Assembly (NCBI GenBank): GCA_012522985.1 | Contig: JAAYJJ010000068.1 | Coordinates: forward strand, 1 to 6,735 | DNA from: Aliarcobacter butzleri | GTDB lineage: Bacteria > Campylobacterota > Campylobacteria > Campylobacterales > Arcobacteraceae | DNA length: 6,735 nucleotides | Reading direction: 5' to 3' | Shown: positions 1-6,517 of the stretch, piece by piece | Layout of the letters: every line of letters starts with the position of its first letter | Position numbering within the stretch: position 1 is the first letter of the stretch | Translations under genes and position numbers: made by a program | The notes under the pieces: model-generated | Databases searched by the model: none | Told to the model about the DNA's origin: nothing | Seen by the model: only the letters and a program-made list of their open reading frames with translations

Positions 1-227
1 TTTACAACGACTTTTCAGAACACAAAATAGAAGACACTATATCAAAAATAAATCAATTTAGTGAACTAGCTCAAAAGATTCGTGTTGGTGAGGTCTCACA
101 AGATGAGATTATGCAACTACTTGGAAATACCAATATCTCTTTTATAGCTGGTGCTATTTTAGGTGCTTTGGGAACAACTATGTTTTCAAAAATATTAGAC
201 AAAAACGATGAAGAGCAAAAATCTTAA
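1..227 (+). CDS. C-terminal part of a small membrane protein, first visible gene of the ferrosome-like operon
   Basis: The gene is open from the left edge (first full codon at base 3) to TAA at 225-227, giving 74 residues. Its start lies outside the window. The visible part has a charged helical stretch (about residues 1-45, rich in E, K, Q and D), then one hydrophobic helix around FIAGAILGALGTTMF, then a short charged tail ending DEEQKS. The helix carries a GxxxG glycine-zipper pattern (GAILGALG) that recurs in the proteins starting at 242 and 836, which suggests related or co-packing membrane anchors. The stop is 14 nt before the next start, with that gene's Shine-Dalgarno in the gap, so the two are almost surely co-transcribed. 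I do not recognise the family. A role in the membrane of an iron-storage vesicle is inferred from context only. Confidence 0.8.
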   Translation, partial: YNDFSEHKIEDTISKINQFSELAQKIRVGEVSQDEIMQLLGNTNISFIAGAILGALGTTMFSKILDKNDEEQKS

Positions 228-241
228 AAAAGGAGTAGATC

Positions 242-487
242 ATGTTACCATTTATTGCTGGTGCGGTTGCTGGAGCTGTTGCTGTTTTGGCTTTTAATAA
301 CAAAAAACAGATAGAAAAAAGTTTAGTAAAAGGTGCTTCAAAAGCAAAAAAAATTGCATCTAGTGGCTATGAGAAGGTCAAAGATATAGCAGTTGAAACA
401 AAAGATAAAATAGAAGATAAAGTTGAATGTTTAAAGTCAAAAAACTCTTCTATTACAGATACAACTAAAGGAAAAGAAAATGATTAA
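242..487 (+). CDS. 81-aa single-helix membrane protein with amphipathic tail (YtxH/DUF5132-like architecture)
   Basis: The ATG at 242 is preceded by AGGAG at 231-235, a well-spaced Shine-Dalgarno, so the start is secure. Residues 3-18 form a short Ala/Gly/Val helix with GxxxG (G7, G11), inserted almost from the first residue. Residues 20-67 are Lys/Glu-rich and predicted helical, of the kind seen in YtxH-like or DUF5132-like small membrane proteins. There is one cysteine (C63), and the last 14 residues are polar. The reading frame overlaps the next gene by 8 nt (480-487), implying translational coupling. The architecture, a short anchor plus a long amphipathic cytoplasmic helix, could coat or curve a membrane. 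I infer a structural role in the same organelle or complex as the P-type ATPase downstream. The family name is uncertain. Confidence 0.85.
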   Translation: MLPFIAGAVAGAVAVLAFNNKKQIEKSLVKGASKAKKIASSGYEKVKDIAVETKDKIEDKVECLKSKNSSITDTTKGKEND

Positions 488-836
488 TACAGGAACTCCA
501 AGAAGTGTAGTAGGACATGTTGTAAGTGGTTCTATTGCATCAAGTATAGTAGCTAGTGCTATGAACTACAATAGATATAAAAAAGAGGAAATAACAAAGC
601 AAAAAGCTATTTGTGATACTATGAAACTATCAGTTCAAGGTGGTATTGCAACAGGAAGTGCAATAGCAGCTACAAATCATCTAGGCAATGGAAATTGGCT
701 TGGATTATTGGGAGCTATAAGTCTTGGTGCTATTGGTATTTATGCAACAGAAAAAATTAGTGAAAATATTGCACAAAATATACAAGAGCAACTACAAATA
801 GAACAAACTCAAAATATTATTGAAGGAGAAGAATAA
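480..836 (+). CDS. MamC (Mms13)-like small membrane protein
   Basis: The 118-aa protein starts at ATG 480, with AAAGGA at 467-472 as ribosome binding site inside the upstream gene. It has a hydrophobic Gly/Ser/Ala helix (about 9-28), a polar basic loop (29-49), a second small-residue segment (51-66), a third hydrophobic stretch (about 73-90) and an acidic Gln/Glu tail. From memory, the loop and second helix match magnetosome protein MamC: here KEEITKQKAICDTMK then GGIATGSAIAAT, against K-x-x-I-T-x-x-x-A-x-x-D-T-x-K then G-x-A-T-x-x-x-A-x-A-A-T in MamC. In magnetotactic bacteria MamC sits in the magnetosome membrane, and its loop affects magnetite crystal size. No other magnetosome genes are visible, so a role in an iron-storage compartment is a better inference than magnetosome formation. 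One cysteine (C45) lies in the loop. It shares one base with the next gene (TAATG). Confidence 0.8.
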   Translation: MINTGTPRSVVGHVVSGSIASSIVASAMNYNRYKKEEITKQKAICDTMKLSVQGGIATGSAIAATNHLGNGNWLGLLGAISLGAIGIYATEKISENIAQNIQEQLQIEQTQNIIEGEE

Positions 837-1147
837 TGCAAAATACACAAAAAAATCCATATATAAAAAGCCAAACAGCTGTAGATACAACAAATACAGT
901 ACAAAATCCATATATAAACAACACTACTACTCCAACAAGTAGTATATTTGATAATTTTGATACAAAAAACTTTTTAATAGGTGCTACAATAGGTGCTATA
1001 GGTGCTTATTTATTAACAAATGAAAAAGCTCAAAAAGCATTATTTAAAACTATAGCTGGTAGTAGCGAGATGTTTCAAGCAGGAGTTGAAGAGCTAAAAG
1101 AAAAATATGAAGATGCAAAAGCTGAACTAGAGGCTTCAAAACAATAA
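836..1147 (+). CDS. 103-aa glycine-zipper membrane protein with NPYI repeats (YtxH-like)
   Basis: The ATG at 836 overlaps the previous stop by one base. A strong AAGGAG at 823-828 fixes the start. Three parts can be seen. Residues 1-44 are a polar Asn/Thr/Gln-rich segment with two copies of NPYI (residues 7-10 and 24-27). Residues 46-60 are a glycine-zipper helix (G49, G53, G56: FLIGATIGAIGAYLL), close in pattern to the helix of the partial gene at 1-227. Residues 63-103 are a charged helical tail rich in Glu, Lys and Ala (VEELKEKYEDAKAELE), likely coiled coil or amphipathic, as in YtxH-type proteins. It has no cysteines. Its stop is one base from the ATPase start, so the ATPase depends on its translation. 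Function is unknown; a scaffold or recruitment role via the repeated NPYI motif is speculation. Confidence 0.85.
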   Translation: MQNTQKNPYIKSQTAVDTTNTVQNPYINNTTTPTSSIFDNFDTKNFLIGATIGAIGAYLLTNEKAQKALFKTIAGSSEMFQAGVEELKEKYEDAKAELEASKQ

Positions 1148-1148
1148 A

Positions 1149-3257
1149 ATGAACAGTGTAAAGTTAGTACATAGTACAAAAAATAGATTAAGATTTATAT
1201 GTGATTTTTTATCACAAGATTTAAATTCATATCAACTTATATTGGATTTGAAATCTATAGTTGGTATAATAGATGTGCGAATAAATAAAAAAGCAAAATC
1301 TATTATATTTGATATTGAAAAAGATATTAGTGAGTCTTTATATCAAAAACTACAAGAACTAAATAGTGATATTTATAAATCTTGTGATACATTTTTAACT
1401 GTTTGTGATGATTGTATAAGTGAAGAAGAACCCTCTTTAAACAATATCATTAAGGCCTCTTCAGCTTTAATAACAACACCTTTTGTTCCAAACGATAATA
1501 TTAAGTTTACATTAACAGCACTTGCATGTTCTTCTTTATTATATGAAGGTACTAAAGAGCTTTTTACAGATGGTTTAACATCAAAAGTTCTTGAAGCTAC
1601 GGCTGTTGGAGTAAGTCTTGCAAGACGAGATTATACTGCTGCAAATGCAACAAATGTAATGCTAGAGCTTGGTGAGTATATAGAAGAGACTATGGTAAGA
1701 AAAAGTGATGATCTTATAAAAGAACTTGCAAAACCTAACATAGAAAAAGTTTGGATAGAAAAGCTAACAGATAATGGAGATAGAACTCTTGAGCTTATCA
1801 ATACATCTGATCTAAATATAGGTGATATTGTAGTAGTTGGTACAGGCGATACTATCGCTATAGATGGGCATATTATAGGTGGAGAAGCTTATATCAATCA
1901 AGTCTCTATGACAGGAGAGAGTATACCAGTCAAAAAAGCTAGGGGTGATAGAGTAATATCTGGAACTATAGTAGAAGATGGTAGAATCAAAATCTGGGCT
2001 GAACAAGTAGGTGAAAATACTGCAACTGCAAGAATCAAAAACTATATACTTACATCACTAAATGAAAAATCATCTATAGGGCTAAAAGCTACTAAACTAG
2101 CAGATGAACTTGTACCTATAACACTAGGACTTGCTGGATTATCTTATGTGATAAATAAAAATTTTGAAAATGTAGCAGCGGTATTACAAGCTGATTATTC
2201 TTGTGCTCTTAAACTTGCAACTCCAGTTGCCTTTAAATCCTCTATTTCACAAGCTGGTAAAAATGGAGTTATGATAAAAGGTGCAAAATCTATAGAGTCT
2301 TTAGCTACTGCTGATACATTTGTTTTTGATAAAACAGGAACATTAACTTATGGAGAACTAGAAGTTACACATATTAACTCCTTTGACAAAGATTGGAGTG
2401 AGGAAGATGTATTAAATCTAACAGCAAGTGCCGAAGAACACTACTTTCACCCCGTAGCTCAAGCTGTTGTAAACGCAGCAAAAGAGAAAGGTTTTGTACA
2501 TATGCACCATGAAGAGGTTGATTTTATAGTATCACATGGTGTCAAAACTATTGTAAATGGTAAAGAGGTAGTTATAGGTAGTAGGCATTTTTTAGAAGAA
2601 GATGAAAAAATAGATTTTAGTAAACATTTAGACAAAATCGAAGCTTGTTTAGATGAGGGAAAAATATTACTTTATATAGGATATGATAAAAAGCTACTTG
2701 GTACTATAGGTATGAATGATAAGCTAAGAGATAATGCCAAAGATGCCATACAAAAGCTAAAACAACTTGGTGTTAAAAAACTTGTTATGCTTACTGGGGA
2801 TATCCAAACAAAAGCAAATCAGATTGCAAAAGAACTTGGTATTGATGAAGTATATTCAAATCTAAAACCTGATGACAAAGCAAATATTATAAAACAACTC
2901 CAACAAGATGGAGCGAATATTGCCTTTGTAGGTGATGGTATCAATGATGCCCCTGCACTTATTAGTGCAAATATTGGTATAAGTATGAGTAAAGGTGCAG
3001 ATATAGCAAAGGCTACAGCAGATATAAGTTTATTAAAAGATGATATTTATGCTATTGTTGAAGCCAAAGAACTTGCAAATAAAACAATGGATTTAATCCA
3101 CAAAAACTTTAATACCACTGTTGTAGTTAATAGTGTGATTTTAGGTGGTGCAACACTAGGTTTATTTAAACCTATATCAACCGCTGTTTTGCACAATGGA
3201 ACAACTATATTTTTACTTTTAAATTCTTTAAAAGGTATAAGATTAACAAAAAAATAG
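1149..3257 (+). CDS. fezB: P1B-type metal ATPase, probable FezB-like (P1B-6) iron transporter
   Basis: A 702-aa P-type ATPase that would move a metal ion across the membrane using ATP. Residues 1-75 look like an HMA_2 fold (VHSTKNRLRF, then GIIDVRINKKAKSIIFDIE) without CxxC in the metal-binding loop; R13 and R15 stand there instead. Cysteines C79, C86 and C89 lie just after it. Two or more poorly hydrophobic helices follow (about 98-177), then the actuator domain with TGES (255-258). The M4 metal site reads YSCALKLATP (350-359), in place of the CPC of copper and zinc pumps. Next come the phosphorylation motif DKTGT (D394), an HP motif (H434-P435), a nucleotide site with SHGV where GHGV is usual, TGD (549-551), GDGINDAP (595-602) and two final helices (about 655-694). 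Enzyme residues are intact. It follows the upstream gene by 1 nt with no strong ribosome site of its own, so coupling is likely. The FezB assignment rests on the non-canonical site and the neighbours; the symbol is provisional. Confidence 0.9.
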   Translation: MNSVKLVHSTKNRLRFICDFLSQDLNSYQLILDLKSIVGIIDVRINKKAKSIIFDIEKDISESLYQKLQELNSDIYKSCDTFLTVCDDCISEEEPSLNNIIKASSALITTPFVPNDNIKFTLTALACSSLLYEGTKELFTDGLTSKVLEATAVGVSLARRDYTAANATNVMLELGEYIEETMVRKSDDLIKELAKPNIEKVWIEKLTDNGDRTLELINTSDLNIGDIVVVGTGDTIAIDGHIIGGEAYINQVSMTGESIPVKKARGDRVISGTIVEDGRIKIWAEQVGENTATARIKNYILTSLNEKSSIGLKATKLADELVPITLGLAGLSYVINKNFENVAAVLQADYSCALKLATPVAFKSSISQAGKNGVMIKGAKSIESLATADTFVFDKTGTLTYGELEVTHINSFDKDWSEEDVLNLTASAEEHYFHPVAQAVVNAAKEKGFVHMHHEEVDFIVSHGVKTIVNGKEVVIGSRHFLEEDEKIDFSKHLDKIEACLDEGKILLYIGYDKKLLGTIGMNDKLRDNAKDAIQKLKQLGVKKLVMLTGDIQTKANQIAKELGIDEVYSNLKPDDKANIIKQLQQDGANIAFVGDGINDAPALISANIGISMSKGADIAKATADISLLKDDIYAIVEAKELANKTMDLIHKNFNTTVVVNSVILGGATLGLFKPISTAVLHNGTTIFLLLNSLKGIRLTKK

Positions 3258-3318
3258 TTTTACTATAGAGTCTTTTAATATGACATATAGTATTTGCAAA
3301 GATTGAAAAGGATAATAG

Positions 3319-3441
3319 ATGCTAGAAAATGTTTTTATAGGTATTGTTTTTATATGGGCTGTTTATTTTATATATAAATCACTATTTAAAAGTGGTGGTT
3401 GTAACTGTGGAAGTAAAAACAGTTGTAAAAGTAAAAAATAA
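3319..3441 (+). CDS. 40-aa FeoB-associated Cys-rich-type membrane peptide
   Basis: ATG 3319 to TAA 3439-3441 encodes 40 residues, with AAGG at 3308-3311 about seven bases before the start. Residues 3-19 form one transmembrane helix (VFIGIVFIWAVYFIY). A short basic linker and a cysteine cluster follow: C28, C30 and C36, within GGCNCGSKNSCKSKK. This is the layout of the FeoB-associated Cys-rich membrane protein family, small proteins often encoded beside ferrous iron transporters and thought to handle Fe(II) at the membrane. No feoB is visible here. The gene lies 61 bp after the ATPase on the same strand with no convincing terminator between, so I take it as the last gene of the same operon. 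It may deliver metal to the ATPase; that is inference. Confidence 0.75.
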   Translation: MLENVFIGIVFIWAVYFIYKSLFKSGGCNCGSKNSCKSKK

Positions 3442-3447
3442 ATTAGT

Positions 3448-3462
3448 TCATATATTATATGA
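3448..3462. repeat. 15-bp perfect palindrome upstream of a promoter
   Basis: TCATATATTATATGA has 6-bp arms around ATT. It sits immediately after the 40-aa gene and about 20 bp upstream of the -10 box at 3483. It could be a repressor or activator site for the downstream transcript, or a weak hairpin ending the upstream operon (a run of seven T follows at 3472-3478, but nine bases away from the stem). The sequence is AT-rich, so chance is possible. It does not match the Fur consensus. Confidence 0.35.
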
Positions 3463-3479
3463 TAGTTAAAGTTTTTTTA

Positions 3480-3488
3480 TGTTACAAT
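3480..3488 (+). promoter_or_regulatory. Extended -10 promoter (TGTTACAAT)
   Basis: TG at 3480-3481, one spacer base, then TACAAT at 3483-3488, preceded by a T-tract (3472-3478). This fits the sigma70 promoters of Campylobacterota, which rely on the -10 box and upstream T-rich tracts rather than a defined -35. Transcription would begin near 3495 and run through the uncertain ORF towards metE. If metE uses this promoter, its leader would be about 420 nt, unusually long. Confidence 0.5.
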
Positions 3489-3518
3489 GACTGAAATTTA
3501 ACTATAGGTGGTTTTTGC

Positions 3519-3875
3519 TTGAGATCTCCGTGCGGTTTTGGAAAACGATATTTTAGTTTAGCTTCCATACAAGCATATAGTGTGCAAATAACCCTTAATA
3601 AAGAGTGTGCTAGATTTGGCTCTTTGGATACATATCATACAAAAACTTATGAAGACAAAGAAGAAGATCCTCCACCTTTACTTGATGAACTTCTTACACT
3701 AGAGCTTAGCTCATATAATCCTTATCGTTGCAATTGCTATTATAGATCAAGATCCAAACGGATTTTAAACAAAAATAGAACTCTTAAACGTTGCCAATGC
3801 TCTAGTAAGTGCTTTAGTTTTAGACGAAGTGGCATACATCCTCCTTTTATTTATATAAACTCACTCAATCAATAA
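3519..3875 (+). CDS. Uncertain 118-codon ORF with TTG start; possible decayed gene or leader RNA
   Basis: The ORF starts at TTG 3519, with AGGTGG at 3506-3511 as a possible ribosome site and a promoter at 3480-3488. I do not recognise the product. The first half contains an acidic proline stretch (EEDPPPLLDELLTLEL, about 48-63). The second half is very basic with CxC (C71, C73) and CxCxxxC (C92, C94, C98). In the +1 frame the second half instead reads as hydrophobic sequence (LAHIILIVAIAIIDQDPNGF, one stop, then LLNVANALVSALVLDEVAYI). A gene broken by a frameshift near 3715 and a stop at about 3779 is therefore as plausible as an intact one. Base composition is less AT-rich than its neighbours, which could mean transferred DNA or a structured RNA. 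The Cys pattern could bind metal if the ORF is real. Confidence that it is a working gene is low. Confidence 0.25.
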   Translation: MRSPCGFGKRYFSLASIQAYSVQITLNKECARFGSLDTYHTKTYEDKEEDPPPLLDELLTLELSSYNPYRCNCYYRSRSKRILNKNRTLKRCQCSSKCFSFRRSGIHPPFIYINSLNQ

Positions 3876-3917
3876 TAAATTAAATTAAAAATAATCTTTA
3901 AATAGAAGGATAAACTA

Positions 3918-6188
3918 ATGTCAAAAAATATCAAAAACAGTATCGTAGGCTTCCCACGAATTGGTGAACAAAGAGAATTAAAGTTTGTTTTAGAAAAATA
4001 TTTTGCTAAAAAATGTGATTTTAACGAGGTAGAAAAAAGTGCAAATATGCTAAAAGAGAGATCTTGGCAATATCAAAAAGATGCAGGAATTGATCTAATA
4101 AGTATCAATGACTTTTCATATTATGATAATATCTTAGATACTATTGTACTTTTTGGTGCTATTCCAAAAAGATTTGAAAATATCAAAGATCCAAAAGAGC
4201 AATATTTTGCTATGGCTAGAGGCAATAGCTCTAGTGTTGCTATGTCTATGACAAAGTGGTTTAATACAAATTATCACTATATAGTACCAGAGCTTAGCAA
4301 AGATCAAAAATTTTCACTAAATAGCAAAAAAATTATTGATGAATACCTTCATGCCAAAGCACAAAATATTAAACCAAAAATAAATCTTATAGGACCCGTT
4401 TCATTTTTGGCTCTTAGTAAGTCAAATGATGGTGGAGACCCTTATCTACACTTTAACAAACTCTTAGAGCAATATATCAAGCTTTTAGAAGAGCTTTCAA
4501 CTCTAGATGATGAAATAATAGTACAATTTGAAGAGCCATATTTTGTAAAAGAACCAAAAAATTCAGAACTTTTGCTACTACAAGAAGCATACAATAAACT
4601 TAGCCATGTAAAAAGCAATATCAAAATAGTAGTTACAACATATTTTGAACACTCAAATGAAGCTACAAAAATCTTAATCAACACTCCTATTTGGGCTATA
4701 GGACTTGACTTTGTAGCAGGGAATAAAAACTTAGAACTACTAAATCTTATCTCAAAAAGCCAAAAAAAGCTTTTTGTTGGTATAATTGATGGTAGAAATA
4801 TATGGAAAAATGATCTTTTAAAAAGCCTTCAAATACTAAAAGAAATATTTAGCTTTATAGATAAAGAAAATATTATTATCAGCACAAGTTGTTCCTTACT
4901 TCATACTCCATATACTCTAAAATATGAAACAACTCTAGATCCAAAGATCAAAAATTGGCTAAGTTTTGCAGTAGAAAAGCTAAGTGAAGTATCACTTTTA
5001 TCAAAGCTTTTTTTCAATATTGAACTAAACAAAGATGAGCAAACTCTACTAGAAAATAGCTTAAAAGCTATAGAAGATAAAAACTCTTCATCTATGGTAC
5101 ATAACTTCAAAGTCAAACAAAGAGTAGAAAATATATCTACTTTTGATAGAGAAGTAGATGCCAAAACAAGGCTAAAAATCCAAAAAGAGACTCTAAAATA
5201 TCCAGATTTAGCGACCACTTCTATAGGATCTTTTCCTCAAACAGATGAGCTAAGAAAGATAAGAAGAGAGTTTAAAAACTCTAACCTAGAAAAAAGCGAT
5301 TATGAAAAATATATCAAAGCCTATATAGATGAAGCTATCAAAATCCAAGAAGAGATAGGATTAGATGTATTGGTTCATGGTGAGCCTGAGAGAAATGATA
5401 TGGTTGAATATTTTGGAGAGTTATTAAATGGCTTTGCATTTAGTGCAAATGGATGGGTTCAAAGCTATGGTACAAGATGTGTAAAACCTCCTATTTTATA
5501 TGGTGATGTGAGTCTTGATAATCCAATGACAACCAAATGGATAACATATGCTCAAAGTAAAACTCAAAAAATAGTAAAAGGTATGCTAACAGGTCCTGTT
5601 ACTATTATAAATTGGTCTTTTGTAAGAGATGATATCCCAAAAGAGACAATAGCCTATCAAATAGCCCTATGCCTTGCTGATGAGATAGATGATCTACAAA
5701 AAAATGGTATCAAAATCATACAAGTTGATGAAGCAGCATTTAAAGAGGGCTATCCTCTAAGAGCAGAAAATATAGCTGATTATGAAAAGTGGGCGGTAAA
5801 TAGCTTTAAACTTAGTACAAGTGTAGCATATCCGCACACTCAAATCCATACACATATGTGTTATAGTGATTTTAACGATATCATCAAGACTATAGAAGCT
5901 ATGGATGCAGATGTTATTACTATAGAAACAGCTAGAAGTGGTAACAGACTACTACAAATCTTTAAACAAGTAGGATATACTAAAGAAATAGGCCCAGGGG
6001 TATATGATATACATAGTCCTAGAGTTCCTAGTGTAGAAGAGATAGAGTCTCAAATTAAACTTTTACTTGAAGTATTGCCAAAAGAGCAACTTTGGATAAA
6101 CCCTGATTGTGGACTTAAAACAAGAAAATGGGATGAAGTTATTCCAGCTTTAAAAAACATGGTAGAAGCTACTAAAAAGTTTAGGTAG
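3918..6188 (+). CDS. metE: MetE, cobalamin-independent methionine synthase
   Basis: MetE transfers a methyl group from 5-methyltetrahydrofolate (polyglutamate) to homocysteine, making methionine in the cytosol without vitamin B12. The 756 aa match the usual length of about 755. The N-terminal domain begins with GFPRIGEQRELK (11-22) and includes STSCSLLHTP; the C-terminal catalytic domain starts near TTSIGSFPQT. By alignment with remembered E. coli numbering (+5 offset), the zinc ligands are H646, C648 (HTHMC), E670 (ITIETARS) and C731 (NPDCGLKTR). Homocysteine-site residues are E489 (HGEPERND) and D604 (QVDEAAF), and the proton donor is H699 (YDIHSP). All are present, so the enzyme should be active. 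ATG 3918 has AGAAGGA at 3904-3910, which fixes the start. No B12 or SAM riboswitch was recognised upstream. The E. coli redox-sensitive Cys645 is Ser650 here. Confidence 0.98.
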   Translation: MSKNIKNSIVGFPRIGEQRELKFVLEKYFAKKCDFNEVEKSANMLKERSWQYQKDAGIDLISINDFSYYDNILDTIVLFGAIPKRFENIKDPKEQYFAMARGNSSSVAMSMTKWFNTNYHYIVPELSKDQKFSLNSKKIIDEYLHAKAQNIKPKINLIGPVSFLALSKSNDGGDPYLHFNKLLEQYIKLLEELSTLDDEIIVQFEEPYFVKEPKNSELLLLQEAYNKLSHVKSNIKIVVTTYFEHSNEATKILINTPIWAIGLDFVAGNKNLELLNLISKSQKKLFVGIIDGRNIWKNDLLKSLQILKEIFSFIDKENIIISTSCSLLHTPYTLKYETTLDPKIKNWLSFAVEKLSEVSLLSKLFFNIELNKDEQTLLENSLKAIEDKNSSSMVHNFKVKQRVENISTFDREVDAKTRLKIQKETLKYPDLATTSIGSFPQTDELRKIRREFKNSNLEKSDYEKYIKAYIDEAIKIQEEIGLDVLVHGEPERNDMVEYFGELLNGFAFSANGWVQSYGTRCVKPPILYGDVSLDNPMTTKWITYAQSKTQKIVKGMLTGPVTIINWSFVRDDIPKETIAYQIALCLADEIDDLQKNGIKIIQVDEAAFKEGYPLRAENIADYEKWAVNSFKLSTSVAYPHTQIHTHMCYSDFNDIIKTIEAMDADVITIETARSGNRLLQIFKQVGYTKEIGPGVYDIHSPRVPSVEEIESQIKLLLEVLPKEQLWINPDCGLKTRKWDEVIPALKNMVEATKKFR

Positions 6189-6214: not shown

Positions 6215-6517
6215 TCAAATCTTACGATTTGGACAAATATCAGCCATTTCACAAAACTTACAAATTACACTATTTTCATTTCTATTGGCACAAATAAAAG
6301 GTATATTTCTCTTTTTTGCTTCTGTTTTAAACTTATACATTGCATTGTGATTTAAAAAATTTGTTAGCATTATCACATACTGCGTATTTTGTGGTATTTT
6401 TTTATTTATATCTCGTGTTTTTCGTAAACTCCAATGAGTGATATCTTTTACACCCAAAAGACTCAAAGAATCTGTGATACCTTCGATCCTATCACCACCT
6501 AAAACCAATACACTCAT
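6215..6517 (-). CDS. DUF2325-like small protein with Cys-rich tail, probably Fur-regulated
   Basis: This 100-aa protein opens with MSVLVLGGDR, a Rossmann-like first strand and GGD turn typical of DUF2325. Other features that fit the family as I remember it are GVKDITHW, KIPQNTQYVIMLTNFLNHNAM and AKKRNIPFICANR. The biochemical role of the family is unknown to me. The C-terminal end has C86, C89 and C95 (CKFCEMADIC), a possible metal or Fe-S site. The start is supported by AGGAG on the minus strand (about 6524-6528). A -10 box and a Fur box lie upstream, so expression is probably repressed when iron is plentiful. It converges on metE across a hairpin and is not part of that operon. Its iron regulation gives a thematic link to the iron-related operon at 1-3441. 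Confidence 0.85.
   Translation of the reverse strand: MSVLVLGGDRIEGITDSLSLLGVKDITHWSLRKTRDINKKIPQNTQYVIMLTNFLNHNAMYKFKTEAKKRNIPFICANRNENSVICKFCEMADICPNRKI

Follow-up and report, generated by a model that had tools for sequence, protein, structure and literature searches.

A fez-type operon with a FezB-type P1B ATPase, truncated at a contig start of Aliarcobacter butzleri: a candidate ferrosome locus

The window analyzed here is an entire contig of Aliarcobacter butzleri (G000:C202 in our set; 6,735 bp) from a genome of 1.59 Mb that is 95.7% complete, and its first 3,257 bp carry genes resembling the fez operons from which ferrosomes are built. Five open reading frames (ORFs) on the forward strand (3–227, 242–487, 480–836, 836–1147 and 1149–3257) follow one another with gaps of no more than 14 bp or with short overlaps. 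Of the four complete starts, those at 242, 480 and 836 are preceded by sequences resembling ribosome-binding sites, whereas the one at 1149 is not. The first frame (3–227), open at the contig start, encodes the C-terminal 74 amino acids, including a membrane segment, of a ferritin-like protein of the DUF2202 type. Behind it come small1, a YtxH-like membrane protein of 81 amino acids (242–487); a MamC-like membrane protein of 118 amino acids (480–836); a YtxH-like protein of 103 amino acids with an NPYI-containing N-terminus (836–1147); and a P1B ATPase of 702 amino acids of the FezB type (1149–3257). The three small proteins are the counterparts of genes 3 (by position), 4 and 5 of a six-gene Rhodopseudomonas operon. 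That positions 1–3257 hold the 3′ portion of a fez-type operon, truncated by the contig start, is well supported.

The ATPase belongs to the heavy-metal P-type subfamily TIGR01525 (488 bits), and its fourth transmembrane segment (TM4) reads D349-YSCALK at the place where copper and zinc pumps carry CPC, in agreement with an earlier note on this DNA that had described a P1B ATPase lacking copper and zinc signature motifs. Further features are R13 and R15 in an HMA_2-like domain, a DKTGT phosphorylation site (394) and an HN-x2-T motif (682–686). Among FezB-type rows with a letter at the position, D349 and C352 were each kept in 180 of 180, H682, N683 and T686 each in 179 of 179, R13 in 177 of 177, R15 in 176 of 176 and S351 in 164 of 180; 21 other P1B rows had Cys at the position of FezB Tyr350 in 17 cases (the first Cys of CPC) and Pro at 351 in 19. 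In a 41-row IQ-TREE phylogeny, which includes five long-branch rows and many rows of unusual make-up, the window ATPase, its Campylobacterota orthologues and the Rhodopseudomonas-side rows formed one clade of 18 rows (support 100/98) with members from Rhodopseudomonas, Rhodoblastus, Azospirillum, Paramagnetospirillum, Aromatoleum, Aeromonas and Azomonas; Vibrio and Cereibacter rows joined next (20 rows, 100/99). Outside the clade lay E. coli CopA and ZntA, two Cupriavidus pMOL30 pumps, two Sinorhizobium pSymA pumps and other Campylobacterota pumps. Placement in a P1B phylogeny was the check set beforehand by the earlier note, and the pump fell with Rhodopseudomonas, away from CopA and ZntA. 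With DYSCALK rather than CPC and a position outside those clades, it did not fit a copper, zinc or cadmium exporter of the CopA or ZntA kind. By its clade and signature residues, the protein can be classed as a FezB-type P1B-6 ATPase, P1B-6 being the class of the ferrosome FezB pumps. The substrate of P1B-6 pumps is given as Fe(II) in the table of a review.

Gene order was compared in two samples. On the Campylobacterota side, 96 of 139 known loci were fetched (the window plus 15 plus 80) and core parts were scored with profiles at E 1e-3; the 43 left aside were picked by choice, 24 of them from one genus with many members of similar score, which makes the sample non-random. For other phyla, named genomes were scanned with an Azospirillum ATPase and the best 80 of 145 relatives were kept, including locus L085 of Rhodopseudomonas sp. 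BR0M22, a proxy for the operon of R. palustris CGA009. Profile specificity varied: 3 of 105 first-pass YtxH matches and 20 of 210 iterated HMA_2 matches in the named loci lay off the expected place, and the MamC-like profile was cleaner. The small1 and YtxH profiles cross-match, so the two proteins were distinguished solely by position before or after the MamC-like gene.

The L085 operon comprises an HMA_2-like gene (789–1283), an HMA_2 gene (to 1623), small1 (1641–1964), a MamC-like gene (to 2292), a YtxH-like gene (to 2623) and fezB (2620–4722). Its order of small1, MamC-like, YtxH-like and FezB genes is common to the window, its ATPase belongs to the same clade with an identical TM4 (QADYSCALKLATPVAFK), and its HMA_2 gene precedes the small proteins, as in relatives of the window. 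Profiles built from Campylobacterota only matched L085 in the corresponding places for HMA_2 (8.9e-10), MamC-like (3.3e-5) and YtxH (9.7e-10), with a weak match for gene 3 (0.011). FezB and the ordered small proteins coupled to it in the window together fill four of the six Rhodopseudomonas positions, that of gene 3 being assigned from its place and a weak match. R. palustris CGA009 is reported to build its ferrosomes with six fez genes, RPA2333-2338, which another report describes as lowered in low light along with many iron genes. From genus, gene number and content, L085 would be the orthologue of RPA2333-2338. The ferrosome systems of Desulfovibrio magneticus and Clostridioides difficile likewise combine a FezB pump with small membrane proteins, FezA and FezB being named for C. 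difficile and FezC for D. magneticus. The fez-type reading of the earlier note gained support from this agreement of ATPase clade and gene order with Rhodopseudomonas, an agreement between genes.

Relatives on longer contigs extend the operon in both directions, in the order HMA_2, ferritin-like (DUF2202-type), small1, MamC-like, YtxH-like, FezB and FezC-like. The ordered core from HMA_2 to FezB was complete in 88 of the 96 loci, among them L159 (77% ATPase identity); of the other eight, the window keeps the part covered by its contig and seven are without one or more parts. A separate HMA_2 gene stood upstream in 95 loci, the truncated window being the exception, and the ferritin-like, small1, MamC-like and YtxH-like genes were found in 91, 93, 90 and 94 loci, respectively. 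Downstream, a FezC-like gene was present in 85 loci, within 2.9 kb of the FezB start in 74 and at about 3.5 kb in 11, and both histidines of its product were kept in 87 of 87 rows. The L159 contig stops 386 bases past FezB, so the missing FezC-like gene there says little. In Campylobacterota, unlike Rhodopseudomonas, HMA_2 is followed by a ferritin-like gene and FezB usually by a separate FezC-like gene, the latter being missing from the window. The first Rhodopseudomonas gene combines an HMA_2-like start with a tail weakly resembling DUF4405 (E 0.046, in the Azospirillum counterpart). Most of the 25 best rows of the FezC-like profile in Proteobacteria were in this first-gene position; the link is nevertheless a weak one, as the profile did not reach significance there (best E 0.0062) and at least 6 of these 25 rows lay elsewhere. 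FezC of D. magneticus is reported as a heme cytochrome; for C. difficile, the proteins that are named as required do not include FezC.

The small proteins differ in how firmly they can be assigned. The window small1 matched YtxH weakly (E 0.046), and the Campylobacterota small1 profile matched the gene-3 position in L085 (E 0.011) and L069 (E 6.5e-4); position and weak match together suggest, weakly, that small1 is homologous to Rhodopseudomonas gene 3. The window YtxH-like protein matched PF12732 under its cut-off (E 8.8e-4), and no segment of it rose above 1.2 on the Kyte-Doolittle scale. The earlier note had counted four small glycine-rich membrane proteins; three complete small proteins are left, the YtxH-like one without such a hydrophobic segment, since the first frame is a truncated ferritin-like tail. 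Its view that one of them is MamC-like held, as NCBIfam MamC (NF038051) matched the window protein at E 8e-7, the 29.3 bits being far under the equivalog cut-off of 100. The same model matched L159 (8.9e-8), L040 (3.4e-8) and Vibrio L037 (8.8e-9), with no match to L053 or to five Proteobacteria versions. In the other direction, the Campylobacterota MamC-like profile matched MamC of Paramagnetospirillum caucaseum (E 4.9e-8) and Magnetospirillum sp. SS-4 (3.4e-7) among about 13,500 frames, the former scoring 34.9 bits against a maximum of 20.2 in 5,000 block shuffles. These significant matches in both directions indicate common descent, so that the protein is, judging from its sequence, a homologue of MamC but not a MamC: it is well under the equivalog cut-off, and its gene adjoins FezB and is not placed among magnetosome genes. 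A function in common with magnetosome MamC may follow from this descent. Placement beside the pump was consistent, with the Campylobacterota-only profile (E 1e-3) matching 48 of 83 non-Campylobacterota loci, always just upstream of FezB on its strand, with zero matches elsewhere in those loci; the iterated profile matched upstream of FezB in 74 of the 80 named loci, with one match elsewhere. An AlphaFold2 model of the MamC-like protein had three helices (predicted local distance difference test score [pLDDT], 77), and a Foldseek search with it returned no match at E 0.001.

The identity of ORF 3–227 was settled by a profile of its tail, which matched the ends of proteins of about 230 amino acids in 16 of 17 other loci (E 1.1e-29 to 2.2e-17); with a full-length ferritin-like relative as query, the window's own genome was matched at this spot alone. 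The reading of this frame as a small glycine-rich protein was thereby ruled out. Relatives scored around the DUF2202 (PF09968) cut-off of 22 bits, with L040 above it (27.9) and L042 (16.1), L159 (19.4) and L126 (17.5) below. The AlphaFold2 model of the Azomonas relative L126 had four long helices, with pLDDT by block mostly above 90, and an unconfident tail, and Foldseek ranked the uncharacterized MJ0754 first (E 3.6e-4), then mostly bacterioferritins and ferritins, two matches being below E 0.001. A ferritin-like fold is suggested by this model of a Proteobacteria relative and its Foldseek matches, the window holding the tail alone. In Campylobacterota rows, Glu was kept in the first long helix in 84 of at least 89 and in the third in 90 of 90. 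Genes of this kind also lay inside the operon in 18 of the 80 named Proteobacteria loci, such as those of Azomonas, Azotobacter and Aromatoleum (L126, L129, L130 and L076), in which the Campylobacterota profile (E 1e-4) returned no separate FezC-like gene.

Beyond the operon, Fur-family genes were present in 53 of the 96 fetched regions, flavodoxin in 11 and FeoB in 7, and FeoB was matched strongly twice in the window genome. Of the 96 upstream regions, 47 had Fur-box-like sites (at least 13 of 19 positions of a consensus), including two plasmid loci, against 13.6% of Markov shuffles; the loci are related and hence not independent, and the window's promoter lies beyond the contig. Full-length FezB relatives (E ≤2e-172) were found in 16 of 41 genomes including its own. 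The best named FezB relatives were those of an Arcobacteraceae metagenome-assembled genome (82%), Halarcobacter and Marinarcus. At E ≤1e-150, FezB occurred in 136 of the 397 genomes sampled from the class and in 29 of 68 genera. Named Campylobacter matches included C. rectus and Campylobacter sp. CCUG 57310.

Taken together, we consider it likely that the window holds a fez-type operon whose FezB-type pump drives Fe(II) into ferrosomes. The layout resembles the likely ferrosome-building Rhodopseudomonas operon, and the cell is accordingly predicted to store iron likewise. The pump would take Fe(II) out of the cytoplasm and load it into small membrane compartments, with D349, C352, H682, N683 and T686 presumably lining the path of an iron cargo. 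The small membrane proteins likely shape these compartments, the HMA_2, YtxH-like and MamC-like proteins sorting to, bending or lining the membrane. MamC in magnetosomes is thought to meet the mineral, and the MamC-like protein perhaps does the same here. The membrane-tailed ferritin-like protein may bind or oxidize iron at the compartment and probably helps iron storage; in relatives, the two-histidine FezC-like protein could adjust the iron redox state, and Fur-type control would tie the operon to iron supply.

Several observations weigh against this picture. What is said here of the organelle, of its cargo and of what the small proteins do is deduced from genes alone, and the ATPase comparison left out FezB of D. 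magneticus, Shewanella putrefaciens and C. difficile. The HMA_2 gene and the ferritin-like core of the window's operon lie beyond the contig start with the rest of its 5′ end, and no FezC-like gene lies downstream; a search of the same genome at E 10, in which a single candidate was scored and a positive control was lacking, gave none. The genome encodes another ferritin/Dps-family protein elsewhere. By a strict pattern, 25 of 34 Arcobacteraceae rows kept the ExxH pair in the second long helix of the ferritin-like protein, as did 13 of 56 rows from other Campylobacterota (a group that includes two from Arcobacter plasmids) and 3 of 18 from Proteobacteria, so that the predicted di-iron site is plausible in Arcobacteraceae and doubtful elsewhere. 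FezB was absent from three congeners searched, two of them just 86% complete. Knowledge of the organelle from genes alone would also suit plain efflux of Fe(II), or of divalent metals more broadly, across the cytoplasmic membrane, with the small proteins as regulators or assembly factors and no organelle; Fe(II) export is reported for P-type pumps such as PfeT. We regard plain efflux as improbable, as the order of the MamC-like, YtxH-like and HMA_2 partners holds across phyla and the same six-gene layout occurs in the genus of a strain reported to form ferrosomes from six fez genes.

Far less probable is a pump that moves zinc, cobalt or manganese for efflux or protein metallation, aided in some relatives by a second upstream P1B ATPase. 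Such an ATPase does lie directly upstream in 19 of the 96 loci, with CPC in the four motifs seen, but the window pump has DYSCALK instead, relatives have iron-linked neighbors (Fur, FeoAB), and FeoA and siderophore receptors flank the Cereibacter homologue; RPA2333-2338 are, moreover, named fez genes. That the window's copy is decaying is scarcely credible: the lack of a FezC-like gene and the three congeners without FezB would suit it, but none of the five frames is interrupted, their coupling is tight, and the family-signature residues and DKTGT site examined are intact.

With the ferrosome interpretation preferred, the Campylobacterota layout can be regarded as a variant of the known fez system with an added ferritin-like gene, as judged from a comparison that left out the founding ferrosome papers. 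S. putrefaciens also has six fez genes, and the D. magneticus and C. difficile systems have fewer. The passages of PMC12574912 examined do not place ferrosomes in Campylobacter, and the founding papers may touch on this phylum, on the ferritin-like gene or on the resemblance to MamC. A bolder proposal, which we would sooner doubt than accept, is that Campylobacterota build a second ferrosome design, with their own membrane-tethered ferritin-like protein capturing or oxidizing iron and a MamC-related protein handling mineral. If so, ferrosomes and magnetosomes would have a mineral-facing protein family in common, and about a third of the genomes sampled from the class, plus named Campylobacter such as C. 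rectus (judged by FezB), would have this design. Through the ferritin-like gene, a single operon would unite two known ideas of iron storage, the protein cage and the lipid compartment. Ferrosomes would be connected to magnetosomes by the MamC link, through shared descent of one part. In a phylum rich in host-associated species, the operon offers a direct, testable candidate.

The second P1B ATPases upstream of the fez operon (L159:307-2496, L040, L163, L190 and 15 more) have CPC followed by S or A and then T in the four TM4 motifs seen, and their N-termini contain an NRVRL-type stretch that looks HMA_2-like by eye, with no Pfam match. The operon also occurs on 133-kb plasmids of chicken-meat Arcobacter (L034 and L035) with an integrase nearby; in L035, TonB receptor genes and a ChaN gene are close and the FezB gene is split over two frames. 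On the Cereibacter plasmid pORIO2 (L038; typed as conjugative), a fez-like cluster has FeoA on one side and siderophore receptor genes on the other. The ATPase of Vibrio sp. THAF190c (L037) has MamC-like, YtxH-like and HMA_2 neighbors, and about 80% identical ATPases occur in Vibrio harveyi, V. owensii and relatives. Eukaryote transcriptome sets, one from Anaeramoeba, contained FezB relatives of about 70% identity (P0023 and P0035), which perhaps derive from associated Arcobacter-type bacteria.

Past FezB, a forward-strand frame (3319–3441) beginning 61 bp after the ATPase gene encodes a Cys-rich membrane peptide of 40 amino acids. The earlier note had counted it as a FeoB-associated-type member of an operon of at least six coupled genes. 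The frame and a weak FeoB_associated (PF12669) match stand, at 19.8 bits against a cut-off of 27. Its place in the operon is unsupported, which leaves five tightly packed genes: in the 1.3 kb past FezB in 98 loci, the peptide was found in the window alone, with no clear counterpart in the 97 others. The single other short Cys-rich frame near FezB (31 amino acids, L176) is of unclear likeness to it. A frame further on (3519–3875) resembles by eye the post-FezB sequence L159:6700-6992, after which lie transposase-like letters, and it is perhaps the remnant of an insertion sequence. Next come metE (3918–6188) and a DUF2325 gene (6215–6517) on the other strand. DUF2325 genes recur near the operon in 7 of the 96 loci including the window, plus both Arcobacter plasmids, the instances being the window gene, L034:5494-5826, L042-L045, L049 and L163.

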